DNA from: a bacterium
GTDB lineage: Bacteria; Sysuimicrobiota; Sysuimicrobiia; Sysuimicrobiales; Segetimicrobiaceae
Reading direction: 5' to 3'
Assembly: GCA_035308905.1 (NCBI GenBank)
Contig: DATGFS010000051.1
Span: 1 to 37,339, forward strand
DNA length: 37,339 bases
Shown piece by piece: positions 2,687-9,722 of the stretch; the stretch's first letter is position 1; the number at the start of each line of letters is the position of its first letter. The notes beneath the pieces were generated by a model that saw only the letters and a program-made list of their open reading frames with translations, did no database searches and was not told the origin of the DNA. A program made the translations under genes and the position numbers.

Positions 2687-4117
2687 CTAGAACGACCACC
2701 ACGTGTAGAAGAGCAGCATGTCGTTGTCGCCGGCGTTGCGCCCCTTGCCGTCGTAGTTCGTCGTGCCGCCGTTGAATTCCAAGAAATACTGGTATTGGAG
2801 CCCGACGCGGACGTTGTACCAGGGGAACCCCTTGCCGGTGTTGTTGGCGAACGGCGTCCAGTTGACCTCCGCGATGATCGACTGCGTATCGGGGCTGTGC
2901 GCCGCGCTGCCGGTGAGGCTCCCGGTCGGGTAGAGCTTCGTGTCGGAGCTGCCGGAGATTGCATTGTAGGCCAAGGTGGCCCCGTACGTGTTGTTCCAGT
3001 AGTATGCCGCGGCAACGCGGAACTGGTTGAGGGTGTCCGACCGGTTCGACGTCTTGCCCGCGTTGAACGACGCGGTGCGGTCCTGGTCCTCATGCAGATA
3101 GTTCGCGGTCACGGCCAGCGTATTGGCGCCGAAGGTGCGCTGGTAAATGAGATCGACACCCCAGTCGCGATACTCATTTTGCGCAAGCGGGTTGGCGATG
3201 CCGGAGACCTTGTTCAACGGCGCGTCGAAGTACAGCGCGCCGACCTCGAGAAAATTCGTCGCCCACGTGCGCTGCCAGGCGAGCCGGAAGTAAGGCGCGC
3301 TGCCGTTGATAAACCCGACGGCGGGATTGCTCCGGCCGAGCAGCGTCAGATCGTCCGTGCTGTAGGTCTGGTACTCTCCGATCTGCGCGTAAATGCTGTT
3401 GTCGAAGAACGCGTAGAGGCTGGCCCCGACCACGTTCGAGCCGAGCGAGTTGATGATGGGCCGCGCGATCGGCGCGACGGCGTTGGTGGGCCCGAAGTAC
3501 GGAAAGAAGTATCGGGCCCCGTCGCCGGAGTCCCGGCTTCCGTAGAGGGCGTTGTCGTACGGATCGCCCTGGGTCGTCTTGTTGTTCAGGTCGAATCCCA
3601 GCAGGAGCGAGTGGCCGCCCTTCAGCGCGATCGGCTTGGTGAGTTTGAGGTCCGACGGCCCCTGCCCGATGTAGGTGGGCCGCCGCGCGACGAGGCCGTC
3701 GCCCAGGTTGATGTAGATCTTTTCGAGCACGCCAGCGCCCCACGCCCCCTTGCCGTAGGTGCGGCCGGTCGCGATGATGAAATTGGCGCAGCCCGGGGTG
3801 ACGAAGTTGTTGGCGCCGTATCCGACCGGCGCCGTCGGCCGATCCTTGGCGAGGCCGGTATAGCTCGGCATGAAGTTGACATTGAACGGCATGCGCGACC
3901 AGGGACCGGTTCCGCCGCCCAGCGTGTAGCCGTTGACCTTGAACGACATGCCGAACGGTGTCAGTTCTGGACCGAAGCCGCCGACGTGACAGGCGCTGCA
4001 CGGAGCGCCTGTCTGCCCGGCGAAGCTGGGCACCGCGTCGGCCGGTGAGATCCACAACATCGCGAGCCCGACCGCCAGCGTTCCCAGACCCGCCGCACGC
4101 GCAACACCGCGAACCAC
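2687..4117 (-). CDS. Cyc2-like monoheme cytochrome c-porin fusion, copy 1
   Basis: This 476-residue protein has a signal peptide (1-28, ending ADA). Next comes PSFAGQTGAPCSACH with one heme c site (C40, C43, H44), then PELTPFGMSFKVNGY. The remaining 400 or so residues alternate aromatic and polar positions as in a beta-barrel, and the chain ends in Phe, as outer-membrane barrels do. Cyc2 of iron oxidisers has the same layout and length. In Cyc2 an outer-membrane heme accepts electrons from Fe(II) and passes them to periplasmic carriers. Many relatives with a GGFGP loop after CxxCH are uncharacterised, so the substrate is not proven. The start is GTG with AGGGGGAG upstream. It lies 49 nt behind the sulfocyanin-like gene and is probably cotranscribed with it. 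Confidence 0.7.
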   Translation of the reverse strand: MVRGVARAAGLGTLAVGLAMLWISPADAVPSFAGQTGAPCSACHVGGFGPELTPFGMSFKVNGYTLGGGTGPWSRMPFNVNFMPSYTGLAKDRPTAPVGYGANNFVTPGCANFIIATGRTYGKGAWGAGVLEKIYINLGDGLVARRPTYIGQGPSDLKLTKPIALKGGHSLLLGFDLNNKTTQGDPYDNALYGSRDSGDGARYFFPYFGPTNAVAPIARPIINSLGSNVVGASLYAFFDNSIYAQIGEYQTYSTDDLTLLGRSNPAVGFINGSAPYFRLAWQRTWATNFLEVGALYFDAPLNKVSGIANPLAQNEYRDWGVDLIYQRTFGANTLAVTANYLHEDQDRTASFNAGKTSNRSDTLNQFRVAAAYYWNNTYGATLAYNAISGSSDTKLYPTGSLTGSAAHSPDTQSIIAEVNWTPFANNTGKGFPWYNVRVGLQYQYFLEFNGGTTNYDGKGRNAGDNDMLLFYTWWSF

Positions 4118-4166: not shown

Positions 4167-4709
4167 TTACTTGACTGTGATGGTCGCCGCGCCGGACGGC
4201 GTCACGCTTGGTTCGGTGGCCGTCGCGGATACGACGAGCGCGTCCCACTGGCCGGAAATCGCGTGCCCCGGCACGCCGCACACGAGCTCGTACGTCCCGG
4301 GCTTACTCGCCTCGAACGTGAAGGTCAGCTGTTGGCCTTTGGCGCTGCCCGCGGCGAAGTTCGGGGTCGTCGCGCCGGCAAACGCCGGGCTGGACGGCGG
4401 CGCCACCTGCGTGTGGGCGCCGGACGCCAGCACGGCCAGGCTGTGGTTCGTCGTATCGGCGTTCTCGAAACGCACGAGCACCTGCCAGCCCGCAGGAACC
4501 GTGATCGTCATTGCGCCGCGCTGGTAGCCGTTGAACGCAAAGCCGCCGTTCGCCGTCTTGTTGGCGGTGATCGTGATCTCGGCCGTATGCGTCGCCGCGT
4601 GCAGCAGCGGCGTCCCGAGGACCAGCGCACCCGCCGCCACGAGAGACAGCACAACGAGTCCCCAGCGCAGCGCGCGCCCGGCCCGTGCGATCTTCTGTTG
4701 CTGCTTCAA
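4167..4709 (-). CDS. Sulfocyanin/rusticyanin-type blue copper protein with axial Gln
   Basis: This 180-residue protein has an N-terminal membrane segment (about 15-37), which could act as a signal or a lipid-side anchor. The cupredoxin domain that follows carries sulfocyanin hallmarks: GFAFNGYQRGAMTITVPAGW, NHSLAV and CGVPGHAISGQWDALVVS. Type 1 copper ligands by position are H89, C144 and H149. The axial position, Met in sulfocyanin and rusticyanin (C-x4-H-x4-M), is Q154 here; the codon CAG is clear. Gln is the axial ligand in stellacyanins and lowers the potential. The start is TTG with GAGGTGAT just upstream. Flanked by two Cyc2-like genes, it is a likely periplasmic electron acceptor for them, as rusticyanin is for Cyc2. 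The exact partner is inferred. Confidence 0.8.
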   Translation of the reverse strand: MKQQQKIARAGRALRWGLVVLSLVAAGALVLGTPLLHAATHTAEITITANKTANGGFAFNGYQRGAMTITVPAGWQVLVRFENADTTNHSLAVLASGAHTQVAPPSSPAFAGATTPNFAAGSAKGQQLTFTFEASKPGTYELVCGVPGHAISGQWDALVVSATATEPSVTPSGAATITVK

Positions 4710-4759
4710 GGATCACCTCGGCACAGATATGGCATCGTGAGGCAAGGCCACCGGCAATC

Positions 4760-4765
4760 ATCATA
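4760..4765 (-). promoter_or_regulatory. -10 box of the sulfocyanin-cyc2 operon
   Basis: TATGAT on the minus strand lies about 50 nt upstream of the TTG start. No good -35 hexamer is at 17 bp (TATCGC, partly covered by the palindrome at 4787-4806), as expected for an activator-dependent promoter. The gap from the palindrome edge (4787) to this box is exactly 21 nt. Confidence 0.6.
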
Positions 4766-4786
4766 CGGACGTGGCGGCGGGCGCGA

Positions 4787-4806
4787 TATCGGATGAAACA
4801 CCGATC
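4787..4806. promoter_or_regulatory. Palindromic operator, site A
   Basis: TATCGG-N8-CCGATC matches 11 of 12 positions of the motif shared with sites B and C. It is centred 31.5 bp upstream of the -10 box at 4765, which puts it near -43 from the probable start of transcription, a class II activator position. Confidence 0.65.
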
Positions 4807-4809
4807 CCT

Positions 4810-4829
4810 TATCGGTCTCTCGACCGATA
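4810..4829. promoter_or_regulatory. Palindromic operator, site B
   Basis: A perfect TATCGG-N8-CCGATA; the symmetry extends to 9 bp per arm (4808-4816 with 4823-4831). It starts 23 bp from site A, about two helical turns, so two dimers could bind on a similar face of the DNA. Confidence 0.65.
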
Positions 4830-4870
4830 AGACACACATCGGCTGTGCCGCGGGCCCCGCCCCACGCGAA

Positions 4871-4897
4871 GAGGCCGGTGAACGTCCCACCGGCCTC
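4871..4897 (-). terminator. Hairpin after the second Cyc2-like gene
   Basis: A perfect 10-bp GC-rich stem (4871-4880 with 4888-4897, 7-nt loop) begins 24 nt past the stop codon at 4922. It lacks a T-run but sits between this gene and the next promoter, where a terminator is expected. Confidence 0.5.
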
Positions 4898-4921
4898 TCG
4901 ATCGGTCCCCGCCCCACCGGT

Positions 4922-6412
4922 CTAGAACGAGAACATGGTGTACAGGAGCAGCTCGTTGTTGTCGGCGGCATTGCGGCCGTGCCCGTCGTAGTTGGTCGTC
5001 CCGCCGTTGAATTCCAGGTAGTACCGGTACTGAAGCCCGACCCGGTAGTTCAGCCACGGGAAGCCCTTCCCGGTGTTGTTGCCGTTGGGCGCCCAGTTGA
5101 TTTCGCCGATGATCACCTGGGTTTCTGGGCTGTGGGCCGCGCTACCCGTCAGCGCCGTCCCGGGATACAGCTTGGTGTCCGTGCTGCCGAAGATCCCGTT
5201 GTACGCCAGGACCGCCCCGTATGTCGCGTTCCAGTCGTAGAGGGCGGCGACCCGGAACTGGTTCAGGAAGTCGCTCGGATTCGACGTCTTCCCGGCCCCG
5301 AACGACGCGGTACGGTCCTGGTCTTCGTGCAGGATGTTGGCCAGCACCGTCAGCGTGTTCCGCCCGAACGTCCGGTTGTAGGTCAGATCGAGGCCGTAGT
5401 CGCGGAACTCGTTTTGCGACGCTGGGTTCGCGATACCCGGAATCTGGTTGAGGGGCGCGTCCAGGTACAGCGCGCCAACCTCCAGGTACTGGGTCCCCCA
5501 CGTGCGCTGCCAGGCGACGCGGAAGTACGGCGCGTTGCCGTTGACAAACCCGATGGTCGGCGGCGATGTCTTCCCGAGCGTGGTGATCGTGTACGGGGCA
5601 AACGTCTGAATGATCCCGGCCTGCACGTACAGGCTGTTGTTCCAGAACGCGTAGACGCTGGCCCCGAAGTTGGACGTGCCGAGCGAGCTGAGCATCACGC
5701 TCGCATTGCCGCTCACGGCGTTCGTGCCGAGGAAGCTCAGCGGGAAACTGTAGCCGTACAGCGCGTCGTCCCAGGGGTCGCCCATGGTCGCCTTGTTGTT
5801 CAGATCCAGGCCGAGCAGCAGCGGCTTCCCGCCCACCGTGATCGGCCTCGTGAACTTGAAGTCGGAGGGAGCTTCGGAGAACTTGATGTTGCCGGGGCCG
5901 GTGGGAAGGCTCATCCACATCTTGCCGATGCCGCCGATGCCCCACGAGTCCTTGTCAAACGTGCGCCCCGCCGCGAAGAGAAACGACGCGCACCCCGGCG
6001 TCACGAAGTTGTTGGGCCCATAGTTCGTGGGCGCCGTCGGCCGATCTTTGCCCAGGTTGACGAACGACGGATTGAACTGAACGTTGAACGGCATGTGCGA
6101 CCACGGCCCGCTGCCGCCGCCCATCGTGTAGCCGTTCAGTTTGAACGAGATCCCGAACGGCGTGAGCAGCGGCCCAAACCCTCCGAGGTGACAGGCGCTG
6201 CACGGCGCGCCCGTCTGGCCCGAGAAGCTCGGCAGCGCCTCCGCGGGGGGGATCCACCACGCCGCCAGCGCGATCGCGAGAGCCCCAAGAAAAGCCGCGC
6301 GGCGGGCGGCCCAGGGACGTACTGCTCGGTCCGGCGGCGTACACTTCGGTGACGGTTGCATCACGAGGCGCATCATGGTGAAGATGATAGGAAAGCCAAC
6401 GATTCGCTCCAT
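4922..6412 (-). CDS. Cyc2-like monoheme cytochrome c-porin fusion, copy 2
   Basis: This 496-residue paralogue of the product at 2687-4117 has the same layout. The signal region ends PAEA, followed by LPSFSGQTGAPCSACH (C71, C74, H75), LTPFGISFKLNGYTM, then about 400 residues of predicted beta-barrel ending in Phe. Conserved stretches such as LNGGTTNYDGHGRNA-type and AHSPETQ run close to the C-terminus in both copies, so the whole gene was duplicated. The start is uncertain: the ATG at 6412 gives a long N-terminus, and ATGs at 6376 or 6361 would place the signal peptide more normally. None has a strong ribosome-binding site. No operator with the shared geometry points at this gene, so control may differ from copy 1. 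Confidence 0.7.
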   Translation of the reverse strand: MERIVGFPIIFTMMRLVMQPSPKCTPPDRAVRPWAARRAAFLGALAIALAAWWIPPAEALPSFSGQTGAPCSACHLGGFGPLLTPFGISFKLNGYTMGGGSGPWSHMPFNVQFNPSFVNLGKDRPTAPTNYGPNNFVTPGCASFLFAAGRTFDKDSWGIGGIGKMWMSLPTGPGNIKFSEAPSDFKFTRPITVGGKPLLLGLDLNNKATMGDPWDDALYGYSFPLSFLGTNAVSGNASVMLSSLGTSNFGASVYAFWNNSLYVQAGIIQTFAPYTITTLGKTSPPTIGFVNGNAPYFRVAWQRTWGTQYLEVGALYLDAPLNQIPGIANPASQNEFRDYGLDLTYNRTFGRNTLTVLANILHEDQDRTASFGAGKTSNPSDFLNQFRVAALYDWNATYGAVLAYNGIFGSTDTKLYPGTALTGSAAHSPETQVIIGEINWAPNGNNTGKGFPWLNYRVGLQYRYYLEFNGGTTNYDGHGRNAADNNELLLYTMFSF

Positions 6413-6492
6413 CCGTGGAATTACGGAGGCCGCATCCGGAAAAATGCGGAGGCAATCCCCGGCCCGATGTTCGGGCGGAGACCCGAGGACGG

Positions 6493-6512
6493 TATCGGTG
6501 GTGCATCCGATA
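6493..6512. promoter_or_regulatory. Palindromic operator, site C
   Basis: A perfect TATCGG-N8-CCGATA; the symmetry extends to 9 bp per arm (6490-6498 with 6507-6515). It lies between the divergent Cyc2-like gene and the response regulator gene, 21 nt from the TACGAT at 6534-6539. This is the same distance as at the sulfocyanin promoter. Confidence 0.65.
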
Positions 6513-6533
6513 CCGGGCTCGGGGATGAGCCTT

Positions 6534-6539
6534 TACGAT
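6534..6539 (+). promoter_or_regulatory. -10 box of the response regulator-kinase operon
   Basis: TACGAT lies 8 nt before the GTG at 6548. No -35 match is visible at 17 bp, where site C ends. The short distance suggests a leaderless or nearly leaderless transcript driven by an activator at site C. Confidence 0.55.
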
Positions 6540-6547
6540 AGGCGCAG

Positions 6548-7258
6548 GTGAGGCCCGTGCAGACCCGGTCTGGGACGGCGCTTATTCGCGTGCTCGTCGT
6601 GGACGACCACCCCGTATTCCGCGAAGGGACCCGCCGCATTCTGGAAGCGCTTCCCGACATCCGCGTTGTCGGCGAGGCCGCGGACGGGACGGAGGCCGTC
6701 CAACTCGCGGACGTGCTGCGGCCCGACGTCGTCATTCTCGATATCCGGCTTCCGGGGCTGAACGGCGTGGAGGCCACACGCCGAATCGTCCATATGGCTT
6801 CCGATACCCACGTGCTCGTGTTGACCGCCTATGACGACGACGGGTACGTCGCGGCGCTCATGAACGCGGGGGCGCTCGGCTACCTGCTGAAGAGCGTCTC
6901 CGGTGCCGAGCTCGCCGAGGCCGTGCGGACGGTCAGCCGGGGTATGCCGGTGCTGCACCCGGTGATCGCCCGCAAGGTGGCGCGCTACTGGGCGCAGTCC
7001 ACCGATCCGGCCAGGCCGGGGGTCACCACGATCACCTCGCGAGAAGTGGAGGTGCTGGATCTGGTCGCGCAGGGCCTCCACAACAAGGAGGTCGCCGAAC
7101 GGCTCGGGCTCAGCACGCGAACCATCGAAACGCACCTCGAGCACATCTTCGCCAAACTCGGGGTGTCGTCTCGCACCGAGGCCGTGACGCTTGCGCTGAC
7201 CCGCCACCTGCTGCACACCGACAGCACGCCGGATCCAAACGCCGGCGGCACGCCATGA
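6548..7258 (+). CDS. NarL/FixJ-type response regulator
   Basis: This 236-residue protein has a receiver domain (about 13-130) with acidic DD near residues 19-20, phospho-acceptor D65 (VILDIRLPG) and K115 (YLLKS). A LuxR-type helix-turn-helix follows (about 160-220, ITSREVEVLDLVAQGL, TIETHLEHIFAKLGV). It is a transcription factor activated by the kinase encoded next, which overlaps it by 4 nt (ATGA). The starts GTG 6548 (8 nt after the -10 box) and GTG 6557 (after AGGTGAGG) are both possible. The palindrome at site C just upstream, repeated before the sulfocyanin gene, is a natural candidate for its own binding site, which would make it autoregulatory. Confidence 0.93.
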   Translation: MRPVQTRSGTALIRVLVVDDHPVFREGTRRILEALPDIRVVGEAADGTEAVQLADVLRPDVVILDIRLPGLNGVEATRRIVHMASDTHVLVLTAYDDDGYVAALMNAGALGYLLKSVSGAELAEAVRTVSRGMPVLHPVIARKVARYWAQSTDPARPGVTTITSREVEVLDLVAQGLHNKEVAERLGLSTRTIETHLEHIFAKLGVSSRTEAVTLALTRHLLHTDSTPDPNAGGTP

Positions 7259-8298
7259 CCGCCGGCGCCGCAGCCGCTCCGGCGCCGGCAGCCGTTTGCG
7301 ACCGGTTGCGGGTGCCAATCCGGGACTGCCGATTCTGGACGATCCAGGCATTGGTTCTGCTCATCGCGGCGGCGGACTTCGCGGCTGACGTTCTCCTCGC
7401 GCAGAACGCCGCGGTGAGCGTCGTCATCGTCACCCTGTTCTTCATTCCGGTGACGTACGCCGCCGTTGCGTTCGATTTCTGGCGGGCCACCATCACCGCC
7501 GTCTGGTGCGTGGTCGTAGATGTGCCGATCATGCTGGTTCAGCATCGTGGAGCGCCGGAACTCGAACAGATGTTTCTCCTCGCCGCCATCGTCGGCGCCG
7601 GCATGTACGTGGCGTATTGGGTGGACCGAGAAGCCGCGGCGCGGGCCGCCCTTCGACTGTACGCGCGCGCCGTCGTACGCGGACAGGAAGATGAACGCCG
7701 GCGGCTGGCCCACGACCTGCACGACGAGACCATCCAGGAGTTGATGATCCACTGCAGGCAGCTCGACGAGTTGAACCACGCGATGAGGGCGCACGGAGCG
7801 GACGCGACGGCCAGCGTGCGGGACGCCCGCGACTCCGCCGAGCGCATCGTACAGGAGCTCAGGGAGCGGATTCGCGCGCTGCGTCCCGCGGTGCTGGATG
7901 ATCTGGGACTGGCGGCCGCTATCGAGCAAATCGTCGGCCGCTACCGGCAAGAGACCGGCGCAACCGGCGAGTTTCGTGTACACGGCGCCGCGCGCCGGCT
8001 TTCCGCCGAGACGGAGGTCGGCCTGTTCCGCATCGCGCAGGAGGCCGTCCGGAACGCGGAGCGGCACGCCCGGGCGACCCGTCTGCACGTCGATCTGGGA
8101 TTCGACGCCGGTCAGGTACGGCTGCGCGTCATAGACGACGGCGCCGGCTTCGTCCTCGACGGGAACCGTGGATTGGCCGCCGACGGACATTTCGGCCTGC
8201 TCGGGATGCGGGAGCGGGCCCATCTCCTGGATGGAAGCCTGGACATCCGCACGAGTCCCCGCGGGGGAACCCAGATCACTGTCGCGGTTCCCGGATAA
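7255..8298 (+). CDS. Membrane sensor histidine kinase, HisKA_3 type
   Basis: This 347-residue kinase has four predicted membrane segments (about 28-50, 53-76, 79-96 and 105-123) with almost no extracytoplasmic loop. Sensing is therefore likely within the membrane or at the cytoplasmic side. The dimerisation/phosphotransfer helix carries H156 in AHDLHDETIQE. The ATPase domain shows the N box (AQEAVRNAERHA), the G1 box (DDGAGF) and GHFGLLGMRERA. It is the cognate kinase of the response regulator upstream. The signal is unknown; its position next to the cytochrome and copper genes suggests a redox or metal-related cue, which is inference. Confidence 0.93.
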   Translation: MTAGAAAAPAPAAVCDRLRVPIRDCRFWTIQALVLLIAAADFAADVLLAQNAAVSVVIVTLFFIPVTYAAVAFDFWRATITAVWCVVVDVPIMLVQHRGAPELEQMFLLAAIVGAGMYVAYWVDREAAARAALRLYARAVVRGQEDERRRLAHDLHDETIQELMIHCRQLDELNHAMRAHGADATASVRDARDSAERIVQELRERIRALRPAVLDDLGLAAAIEQIVGRYRQETGATGEFRVHGAARRLSAETEVGLFRIAQEAVRNAERHARATRLHVDLGFDAGQVRLRVIDDGAGFVLDGNRGLAADGHFGLLGMRERAHLLDGSLDIRTSPRGGTQITVAVPG

Positions 8299-8319: not shown

Positions 8320-8982
8320 TCACTCGTCGACGACGTATTCGAACAGCCACACGCCCAGCACCAGCACGATCACGTCGAACGCCGCGAGAAAGCCGGCGGG
8401 CCCGAGGATCGCGCCAAACGGCGCGCCTTCGAGCGCCGCGCTCACGCCGGACAGCGAGACCACGATCGCGGGCAGGGTGACCGGCACCAGGAGAATCGGA
8501 AGCAGGACCTCGCGCAGACGCGTCGCCGCCGCCATCGCCCCGAGCAGCGTGCCCGTCGCCGCAAACCCCACGCCGCCGAGTCCGAGCGGGAGTGCCACCC
8601 CGGCGATCCGCCGGCCGAGATCCGGCGTGACGAGCACCGTCTCCGCGAGCACGATCACGGCCATGACCAGGAGGGTGAGCAGCAGATTCGCGGCGGCCTT
8701 GGCCAGGAACAGCGTGCCGCGGCCCACCGGGGACAGCAGCACGCCGGAGAACGCCTGACGGTCCTGCTCCAGCGCCTGCGAGCGCGCCAGGCCGAGCGTT
8801 GCCGCGAAGACGACGGTGATCCAGAGAATGGCCGCGGTGACGGCCGGGGCCGGGGCGCTGCCGACCGCGACGCCCTGCACCACCAGGGCAAGAAACGCGA
8901 CGAGGCTCATCGACGTCACGAGCTCGCGCGTGCGCAGCTCCGCCAGCACGTCTTTCCAGATGAGCGCCGCCGCGGCCCTCAT
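8320..8982 (-). CDS. ccmB: Heme exporter membrane subunit CcmB
   Basis: This 220-residue protein has six hydrophobic segments and the CcmB N-terminus (IWKDVLAELRTRE), with QALEQDRQAFSGVLLSP in the second loop, a CcmB hallmark. It is the permease half of the CcmAB ABC transporter of cytochrome c maturation system I, which drives release of heme-loaded CcmE. It starts inside the end of ccmA (4-nt overlap). ccmC, ccmE and ccmF are not in the window; this gene is the last of the minus-strand run and faces the kinase gene tail to tail. Confidence 0.9.
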   Translation of the reverse strand: MRAAAALIWKDVLAELRTRELVTSMSLVAFLALVVQGVAVGSAPAPAVTAAILWITVVFAATLGLARSQALEQDRQAFSGVLLSPVGRGTLFLAKAAANLLLTLLVMAVIVLAETVLVTPDLGRRIAGVALPLGLGGVGFAATGTLLGAMAAATRLREVLLPILLVPVTLPAIVVSLSGVSAALEGAPFGAILGPAGFLAAFDVIVLVLGVWLFEYVVDE

Positions 8983-9722
8983 CGCCCGCGATACCAGGCG
9001 TCGACCGCCGCGGCGTCGAGACCGGCGAGCGGGAGCGGCGGGCCGAGGCGTCCGCCGCCGAGCACTCGCGCCTCACCGCCGATCCGCACCGCCTCCGCGG
9101 ACTGATGCGTGGCCAGCACCACCGTCCCGCCGTCCCCGCGAAACCGGTCGAGGTGCGCGGCGAGCTGCGAGGCGGCGTCCGGATCGAGGCCGGCGAACGG
9201 CTCGTCGAGGATCAAGACGGCCGGCTGATGCAGGATGGCGCGCGCCACGGCCGCGCGCTGGCTGAGCCCCCGGGAGAGCCGGGCGGCGACGGTCTCGCGG
9301 TACCCGGCGAGACCGAGCAGCGCGCAGACCTCGTCGATCCGGGGGCGCGGCGCGGCGAGATCGTACAGCGCCGCGAACAGGCGGAGATTTTCGGCCACCG
9401 TCAGGCCGCCGTAGAGCATCGGCTCGTGCCCGACGTAGCCGATGCGGCGCCGCGCGCGCGGATCGGTGAAGAGCTCCTCGCCGCCGACGAGGACGGTCCC
9501 CCGCTGGGGGCGCAGCAGTCCGGCGAGCGCGCGCAGGAGCGTCGACTTACCGGAGCCGTTCGGCCCGAAGACGGCGAGGGCGCCGCCGGCGGGGACTTCC
9601 AGGGAGACGCCCCGCAGCACCCGCTCGCGGCCGAAGCCGCGCCAGACGTCGCGGGCGGCGACCGCCGCGTGGGCCGCCGGGGAGGCCGACGCGGCGGCGG
9701 AGTCCTCGGCGGCGGCCTTCAC
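8979..9722 (-). CDS. ccmA: Heme exporter ATPase CcmA
   Basis: This 247-residue ABC ATPase has Walker A GPNGSGKST (53-61), signature LSRGLSQRAAVARA, Walker B ILILDEP-type (AVLILDEPFAGLD) and the switch His in ATHQ. Its length and coupling to CcmB identify it as the ATPase of the cytochrome c heme-handling transporter. Its Ala-rich N-terminus (first 20 residues) is longer than usual. It lies 13 nt behind the BshC-like gene. Confidence 0.88.
   Translation of the reverse strand: MKAAAEDSAAASASPAAHAAVAARDVWRGFGRERVLRGVSLEVPAGGALAVFGPNGSGKSTLLRALAGLLRPQRGTVLVGGEELFTDPRARRRIGYVGHEPMLYGGLTVAENLRLFAALYDLAAPRPRIDEVCALLGLAGYRETVAARLSRGLSQRAAVARAILHQPAVLILDEPFAGLDPDAASQLAAHLDRFRGDGGTVVLATHQSAEAVRIGGEARVLGGGRLGPPLPLAGLDAAAVDAWYRGR

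Follow-up and report, generated by a model that had tools for sequence, protein, structure and literature searches.

LuxR/NarL-type regulators can activate transcription from a class II position, an example being the lux box near -42. RegA belongs to a response-regulator family other than NarL. Two NarL-type response regulators of dormancy, DevR/DosR of Mycobacterium tuberculosis and OsdR of Streptomyces coelicolor, combine a palindromic operator with positive autoregulation and serve stress-type regulons. For Cyc2, the RegB/RegA two-component system has been proposed to control the rus (cyc2) operon of Acidithiobacillus ferrooxidans, RegA usually binding upstream of the -35 box (PMC5506826).

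In the window, by which we mean the whole stretch of 37,339 nucleotides analysed here, a NarL-type response-regulator gene (RR-A) and a kinase gene lie next to genes for a sulfocyanin and two Cyc2-like porin-cytochromes. The locus resembles DevR/DosR and OsdR in its NarL-type regulator, its palindromic operator and its predicted positive autoregulation, as well as in a putative stress-type regulon and a paralogue accompanied by a GAF-domain HisKA_3 kinase (G000:C4, G000 being the genome of the window). It differs in the operator itself, which is ATCGG-N8-CCGAT here and AGGGCCGATCGGCCCT for OsdR (PMC5069765). The GGGAC/GGGCC half-sites of DosR-type operators are likewise not found, the half-site here being ATCGG with an 8-bp spacer, and because the operator sequence differs we do not claim membership in the DosR regulon. 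Further differences are that RR-A fits the VraR and NarL structures slightly better than that of DevR, that its own kinase is without a GAF domain by Pfam, and that the target is a cupredoxin/porin-cytochrome module. As with RegB/RegA, a two-component system is proposed for a Cyc2-containing electron-transfer operon, but the site here replaces the -35 box and the regulator is of the NarL type. As in lux-box class II activation, a 20-bp dyad lies by the -10 region, over the -35 position, but with a new half-site sequence and in an uncultured-looking lineage. The class of mechanism is known. What appears to be new, judged by the papers searched, is the operator family with its range, together with the private circuit proposed for the Cyc2/sulfocyanin module; we found there no published NarL operator of this kind from the lineage.

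Genes and putative operators of the locus

The features are listed below by position in the window; G002 is a congener, the nearest relative with the cluster, whose response regulator is 77% identical.

2687-4117, minus strand: Cyc2-like monoheme porin-cytochrome b, 476 aa, downstream of the sulfocyanin gene (CSACH in the translation; family alignment)
4167-4709, minus strand: sulfocyanin-type cupredoxin, TTG start, Shine-Dalgarno GAGGTGATCC upstream (Pfam SoxE PF06525, 3.8e-23)
4760-4765, minus strand: putative -10 box TATGAT of the sulfocyanin gene, with 21 nt between it and the proximal operator (TATGAT at equal offset in G002)
4787-4806, minus strand: putative promoter-proximal operator of the sulfocyanin gene, GATCGGTGTTTCATCCGATA on this strand (kept at the G002 SoxE and SoxE2 promoters)
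4810-4829, minus strand: putative distal tandem operator, a perfect palindrome 23 bp upstream of the proximal one (the 23-bp spacing recurs elsewhere)
4922-6412, minus strand: Cyc2-like monoheme porin-cytochrome a (cyc2a), 496 aa, between the two operators (alignment; low-confidence strand-rich model)
6412-6427, no strand: dyad TCCGTGGAATTACGGA, TCCGT-N6-ACGGA, in a noncoding block that is conserved between the upstream regions of cyc2a and G002 SoxE2, outside the described operators
6470-6487, plus strand: TTCGG-N8-CCGAG, a degenerate distal dyad lying 24 bp upstream of the operator of the regulator gene (partly conserved in G002)
6493-6512, plus strand: putative operator of the response-regulator gene, a perfect palindrome (conserved in G002)
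6534-6539, plus strand: putative -10 box TACGAT of the response-regulator gene, with 21 nt between it and the operator (TACCAT at equal offset in G002)
6548-7258, plus strand: RR-A, NarL/LuxR-type response regulator, GTG start (Pfam Response_reg 3.4e-29, GerE 2.9e-20)
7255-8298, plus strand: HisKA_3-type membrane sensor histidine kinase, overlapping the RR-A stop codon (Pfam HisKA_3, HATPase_c)

RR-A consists of a receiver and a LuxR-type DNA-binding domain, both above the Pfam cut-off (PF00072 and PF00196), and its phospho-acceptor aspartate is indicated by the motifs VVDDH...VILDIRLPG...LKS; the HisKA_3 kinase gene that overlaps its stop codon is the paired kinase. VraR, NarL and DevR, all NarL-family regulators, are among its closest relatives of solved structure, and its relatives in named genomes reach about 50% identity or less. 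The sulfocyanin gene encodes a SoxE cupredoxin domain (PF06525, 3.8e-23), while the score against the TIGR03094 sulfocyanin equivalog is 81.0 bits versus a cut-off of 168.4. Cyc2 porin-cytochromes are expected to be outer-membrane beta-barrels of about 16 strands. The label is plausible for the two heme proteins, which combine one CSACH heme motif with a Cyc2-like layout: the single CxxCH motif lies near the N-terminus, as in Cyc2, and CSACH is invariant in an alignment of nine homologues. The AlphaFold model of cyc2a is strand-rich, at a pLDDT of 38.6 too uncertain to prove a barrel, and Foldseek returned weak matches, nearly all to outer-membrane porins, which at query TM scores of 0.15-0.32 are only suggestive; searches of Pfam, NCBIfam and PDB sequences gave no match for this protein. 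Directly past the kinase gene, near two heme-protein genes, CcmB and a CcmA-like ABC ATPase (heme export, cytochrome c maturation) are encoded at 8320-9722 on the minus strand.

A sequence-only reading of this DNA had reported three copies of TATCGG-N8-CCGATA, one with a mismatch and no others in the window, lying at two promoters on opposite strands exactly 21 nt from a TAYGAT -10 box, with no good -35 box, in the geometry of a class II activator site. These coordinates proved correct to the base: the palindrome is exact at 4810-4829 (TATCGGTCTCTCGACCGATA) and 6493-6512 (TATCGGTGGTGCATCCGATA) and carries one mismatch at 4787-4806 (TATCGGATGAAACACCGATC), all three copies being intergenic and inside 1.7 kb. 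No further copy was found in the window with up to two mismatches allowed, for which the chance mean is 1.1 matches versus the three seen, two of them exact. The genome-wide search that the same reading had proposed returned only the 4810 and 6493 copies as exact matches in the whole 4.006-Mb genome, and allowing one mismatch added two more palindromes (C4:70168 and C65:795).

Both gaps are exact as well. Positions 4766-4786 are the 21 nt separating the 4787 palindrome from ATCATA at 4760-4765 (TATGAT on the minus strand), and TACGAT at 6534-6539 is set off from the 6493 palindrome by the 21 nt of 6513-6533; at the sulfocyanin promoter it is the imperfect copy that lies 21 nt from the -10 box, the exact copy at 4810 being distal. 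Since TAYGAT occurs only ten times in the window, both strands together, two exact 21-nt gaps are not expected by chance. A sigma-70 scan of 4650-6600 found no -35/-10 pair, which bears out the remark on the -35 box. Placing the -10 hexamer at -12 to -7 puts the centre of the palindrome near -43.5, and with an operator fixed over the -35 position, a poor -35 and a recognisable -10, class II activation is well supported by the geometry. No operator/-10 arrangement of this kind directed towards cyc2a was found. The start codon of the regulator gene, GTG in the window and ATG in G002, lies only 8 and 9 nt past the -10 box, respectively, which suggests that the RR-A mRNA is probably leaderless and lends independent support to this -10 assignment.

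Tandem operators with an exact 23-bp period occur at 4787-4829 of the window and also at L177:17144-17186, L179:795-837 and G002:C77:20937-20977; the spacing recurs in G002:C77, G005:C89 and G000:C65 and is degenerate at G002:C74, hinting at cooperative binding of two dimers. The intergenic region upstream of the regulator gene also holds CCGCAT-N8-ATGCGG at 6430-6449, a perfect 6-8-6 dyad built of different half-sites, which is not kept in G002.

Recurrence of the putative operator-promoter module

Conservation in relatives, which the sequence-only reading had named as a check, is seen in the congener. G002:C74 carries the same cluster plus an extra sulfocyanin gene, and at all three orthologous promoters the palindrome ends 21 nt from a -10 box (TATGAT, TACCAT and TACCAT). 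When the promoters of the two species are aligned, TCGGTNTNNNATCCGAT and part of the distal site are kept at the sulfocyanin gene, and CCGAGCCCGGTAT...CACCGATACC (minus-strand reading) at the regulator gene. The 21-nt gap is thereby kept at five of five promoters across the two species, which supports the prediction that the regulator would control its own gene and the sulfocyanin gene. A second sulfocyanin and Cyc2-like cluster, accompanied by another NarL-type regulator/HisKA_3 kinase pair, was observed at G000:C48 (L163), G002:C82 (L164) and G001:C120 (L165), and in G000 and G002 it has palindrome-like sites about 170 bp upstream of the sulfocyanin gene, without the 21-nt -10 geometry.

The genome's nearest relatives belong to a single order with seven families, and the next closest genomes come from other phyla. 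This pattern would fit a one-order phylum such as Sysuimicrobiota/CSP1-3, which has been described with one class, one order and five families (PMC11604079). Written for its core, which lies 22 nt from TANNNT where the full palindrome lies 21 nt from the -10 box, the pattern ATCGG-N8-CCGAT-N22-TANNNT has 108 matches in 28 of the 43 genomes of the order, so that the proposed class II geometry is strongly supported by its recurrence at equal offset. As controls we used other spacings and outgroup genomes, the reversed pattern being judged too weak as it contains TAG words. In the order, the five spacings N15-N19 together gave 13 matches, N22 being about 40-fold above the control spacings; in the family, 43 N22 matches in 12 genomes compare with 7 for the five spacings N24-N28 together; and in the outgroup the N22 pattern has 22 matches, in 20 of 248 genomes. 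These counts refute the idea that the site is private to the window's genome. The half-site spacer is equally distinct: across 488 kb drawn from genomes of the family and the order, where most loci were picked by regulator or target gene and not by the palindrome and some loci overlap, a spacer of 8 bp occurs in 45 copies versus 0-6 for any other length. A histogram of sites was set aside as primary evidence, being partly selected (loci retrieved by the pattern). The -10 boxes across sites are mostly TA(C/G/T)NNT, their first, second and last bases being fixed by the search, and no -35 pattern was found across the order and family sites.

The genes behind the other sites encode CBS and CBS-BON proteins, OsmC, dienelactone hydrolases (DLH), DoxX and proline dehydrogenase, and also a cold-shock protein, baeRF10, a tRNA-editing domain, regulators and metabolic enzymes; the CBS, OsmC, DLH, DoxX and baeRF genes recall a DosR-type stress regulon. 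We conclude that signal-responsive activators of one family very probably bind the palindrome. As a sequence rule, it predicts about 100 activator-dependent promoters in one order, for which the papers searched yielded no described operator, and it points to the regulator family that would read them.

Candidate regulators of the window sites

Sites within 2.5 kb of a NarL-type regulator homologue number 22 of 108, versus 0.75 expected. Among 45 NarL-type regulators from the family, those with an upstream site fall mainly into two clades, RR-A and RR-B. The RR-A clade with sites comprises the window and G002. RR-B is a widespread GerE-type paralogue with recognition helix SVKTVQTHRAHI, present in the window's genome at G000:C50, where the gene is preceded by a near-match of the operator and followed by a CBS-BON gene, and is taken to be autoregulated. 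Elsewhere in this genome, at G000:C4:46604 to 48560 (L253), a GAF-HisKA_3 kinase gene is followed by an RR-B-like regulator gene, and an operator core lies at the start of the kinase gene or just ahead of it, an arrangement that recalls DosS/DosR.

The sequence-only reading had called the adjacent regulator the obvious binder. What stands of this is that RR-A is favoured, since the sites at RR-A loci have a distinct sub-motif and their linkage to the gene is conserved; what does not stand is the obviousness, the element being order-wide and also upstream of RR-B. The sub-motif, ATCGGTR-N4-ATCCGAT, is found at three of the five promoter-proximal operators of RR-A loci, a fourth differing by one left-arm base and the fifth being degenerate. 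Of the RR-A-locus sites, 5/5 have a purine at operator position 7, versus 6/105 of the sites at other loci, and 4/5 have AT at positions 12-13, versus 1/105, with p-values of about 4e-6 that overstate independence, the five sites coming from two related species. If these differences reflect binding, the sub-motif names the bases that separate private from shared specificity. The distal window site at 4810 is RR-B-like at positions 7 and 12, and upstream of the RR-A sister regulators G001:C142 and G004:C14 no convincing dyad with equal geometry was found. We put at roughly 0.6 the probability that RR-A is the local binder, autoregulating and activating the sulfocyanin-cyc2 operon from a class II position.

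Since the element also lies upstream of RR-B, which is present at C50, the window operators could instead be bound by RR-B, RR-A being its downstream target in a hierarchical cascade. This reading fits an operator class that is order-wide, RR-B-clade genes with upstream sites in most genomes of the family, G000 included, and the sulfocyanin gene of G003, which has an RR-B-type site at an equal 21-nt gap in a genome where no RR-A orthologue was found. It is a serious rival but the less likely of the two readings, as the RR-A-locus sites differ systematically at inner positions 7, 12 and 13 and the RR-A gene is linked to such sites in both species that have it.

Proposed mechanism and direction of control

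Returning to RR-A, we propose that the palindromes are operators of a family of NarL-type response regulators activating from a class II position, where a dimer centred near -43.5, over the missing -35 box, would recruit RNA polymerase to the TANNNT -10. In the window the binder would most likely be RR-A (6548-7258), phosphorylated by the adjacent HisKA_3 kinase; it would (i) activate its own, probably leaderless, gene and (ii) activate the sulfocyanin-cyc2 operon via the site pair 23 bp apart. RR-A would then be a locus-specific paralogue of the more general, autoregulated RR-B, which may rely on this operator architecture throughout the order to run a stress or redox regulon. The two Cyc2-like porin-cytochromes and the sulfocyanin, a module putatively serving metal oxidation or extracellular electron transfer, are predicted to be switched by a dedicated two-component system. 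The broader proposal, that the order shares one operator-promoter module for paralogous NarL-type activators and that a duplicated regulator altered the inner bases, gaining a private autoregulated Cyc2/sulfocyanin circuit, we consider an even bet; if true, it would show in readable form, and in a lineage about which little is known, how a regulon is subdivided once its regulator has been duplicated.

Repression, too, can work through a palindrome over the -35 region, by blocking polymerase, and the direction of control is unreadable from the sequence. A repressor operator is nonetheless improbable here, for the sites have no recognisable -35 box and a fixed offset, and their neighbours are NarL-type regulators. 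A reading as RNA hairpins, terminators or chance inverted repeats can be dismissed. Each palindrome could fold on paper into a short hairpin, and the window holds 41 perfect 6-8-6 dyads when any sequence is allowed, but the half-site spacing, the sequence and the -10 offset are conserved across the order and no T-run follows the palindromes. A separate GC-rich hairpin (GAGGCCGGTG...CACCGGCCTC, 4868-4900) follows just past the cyc2a stop codon and is probably the end of that transcript.
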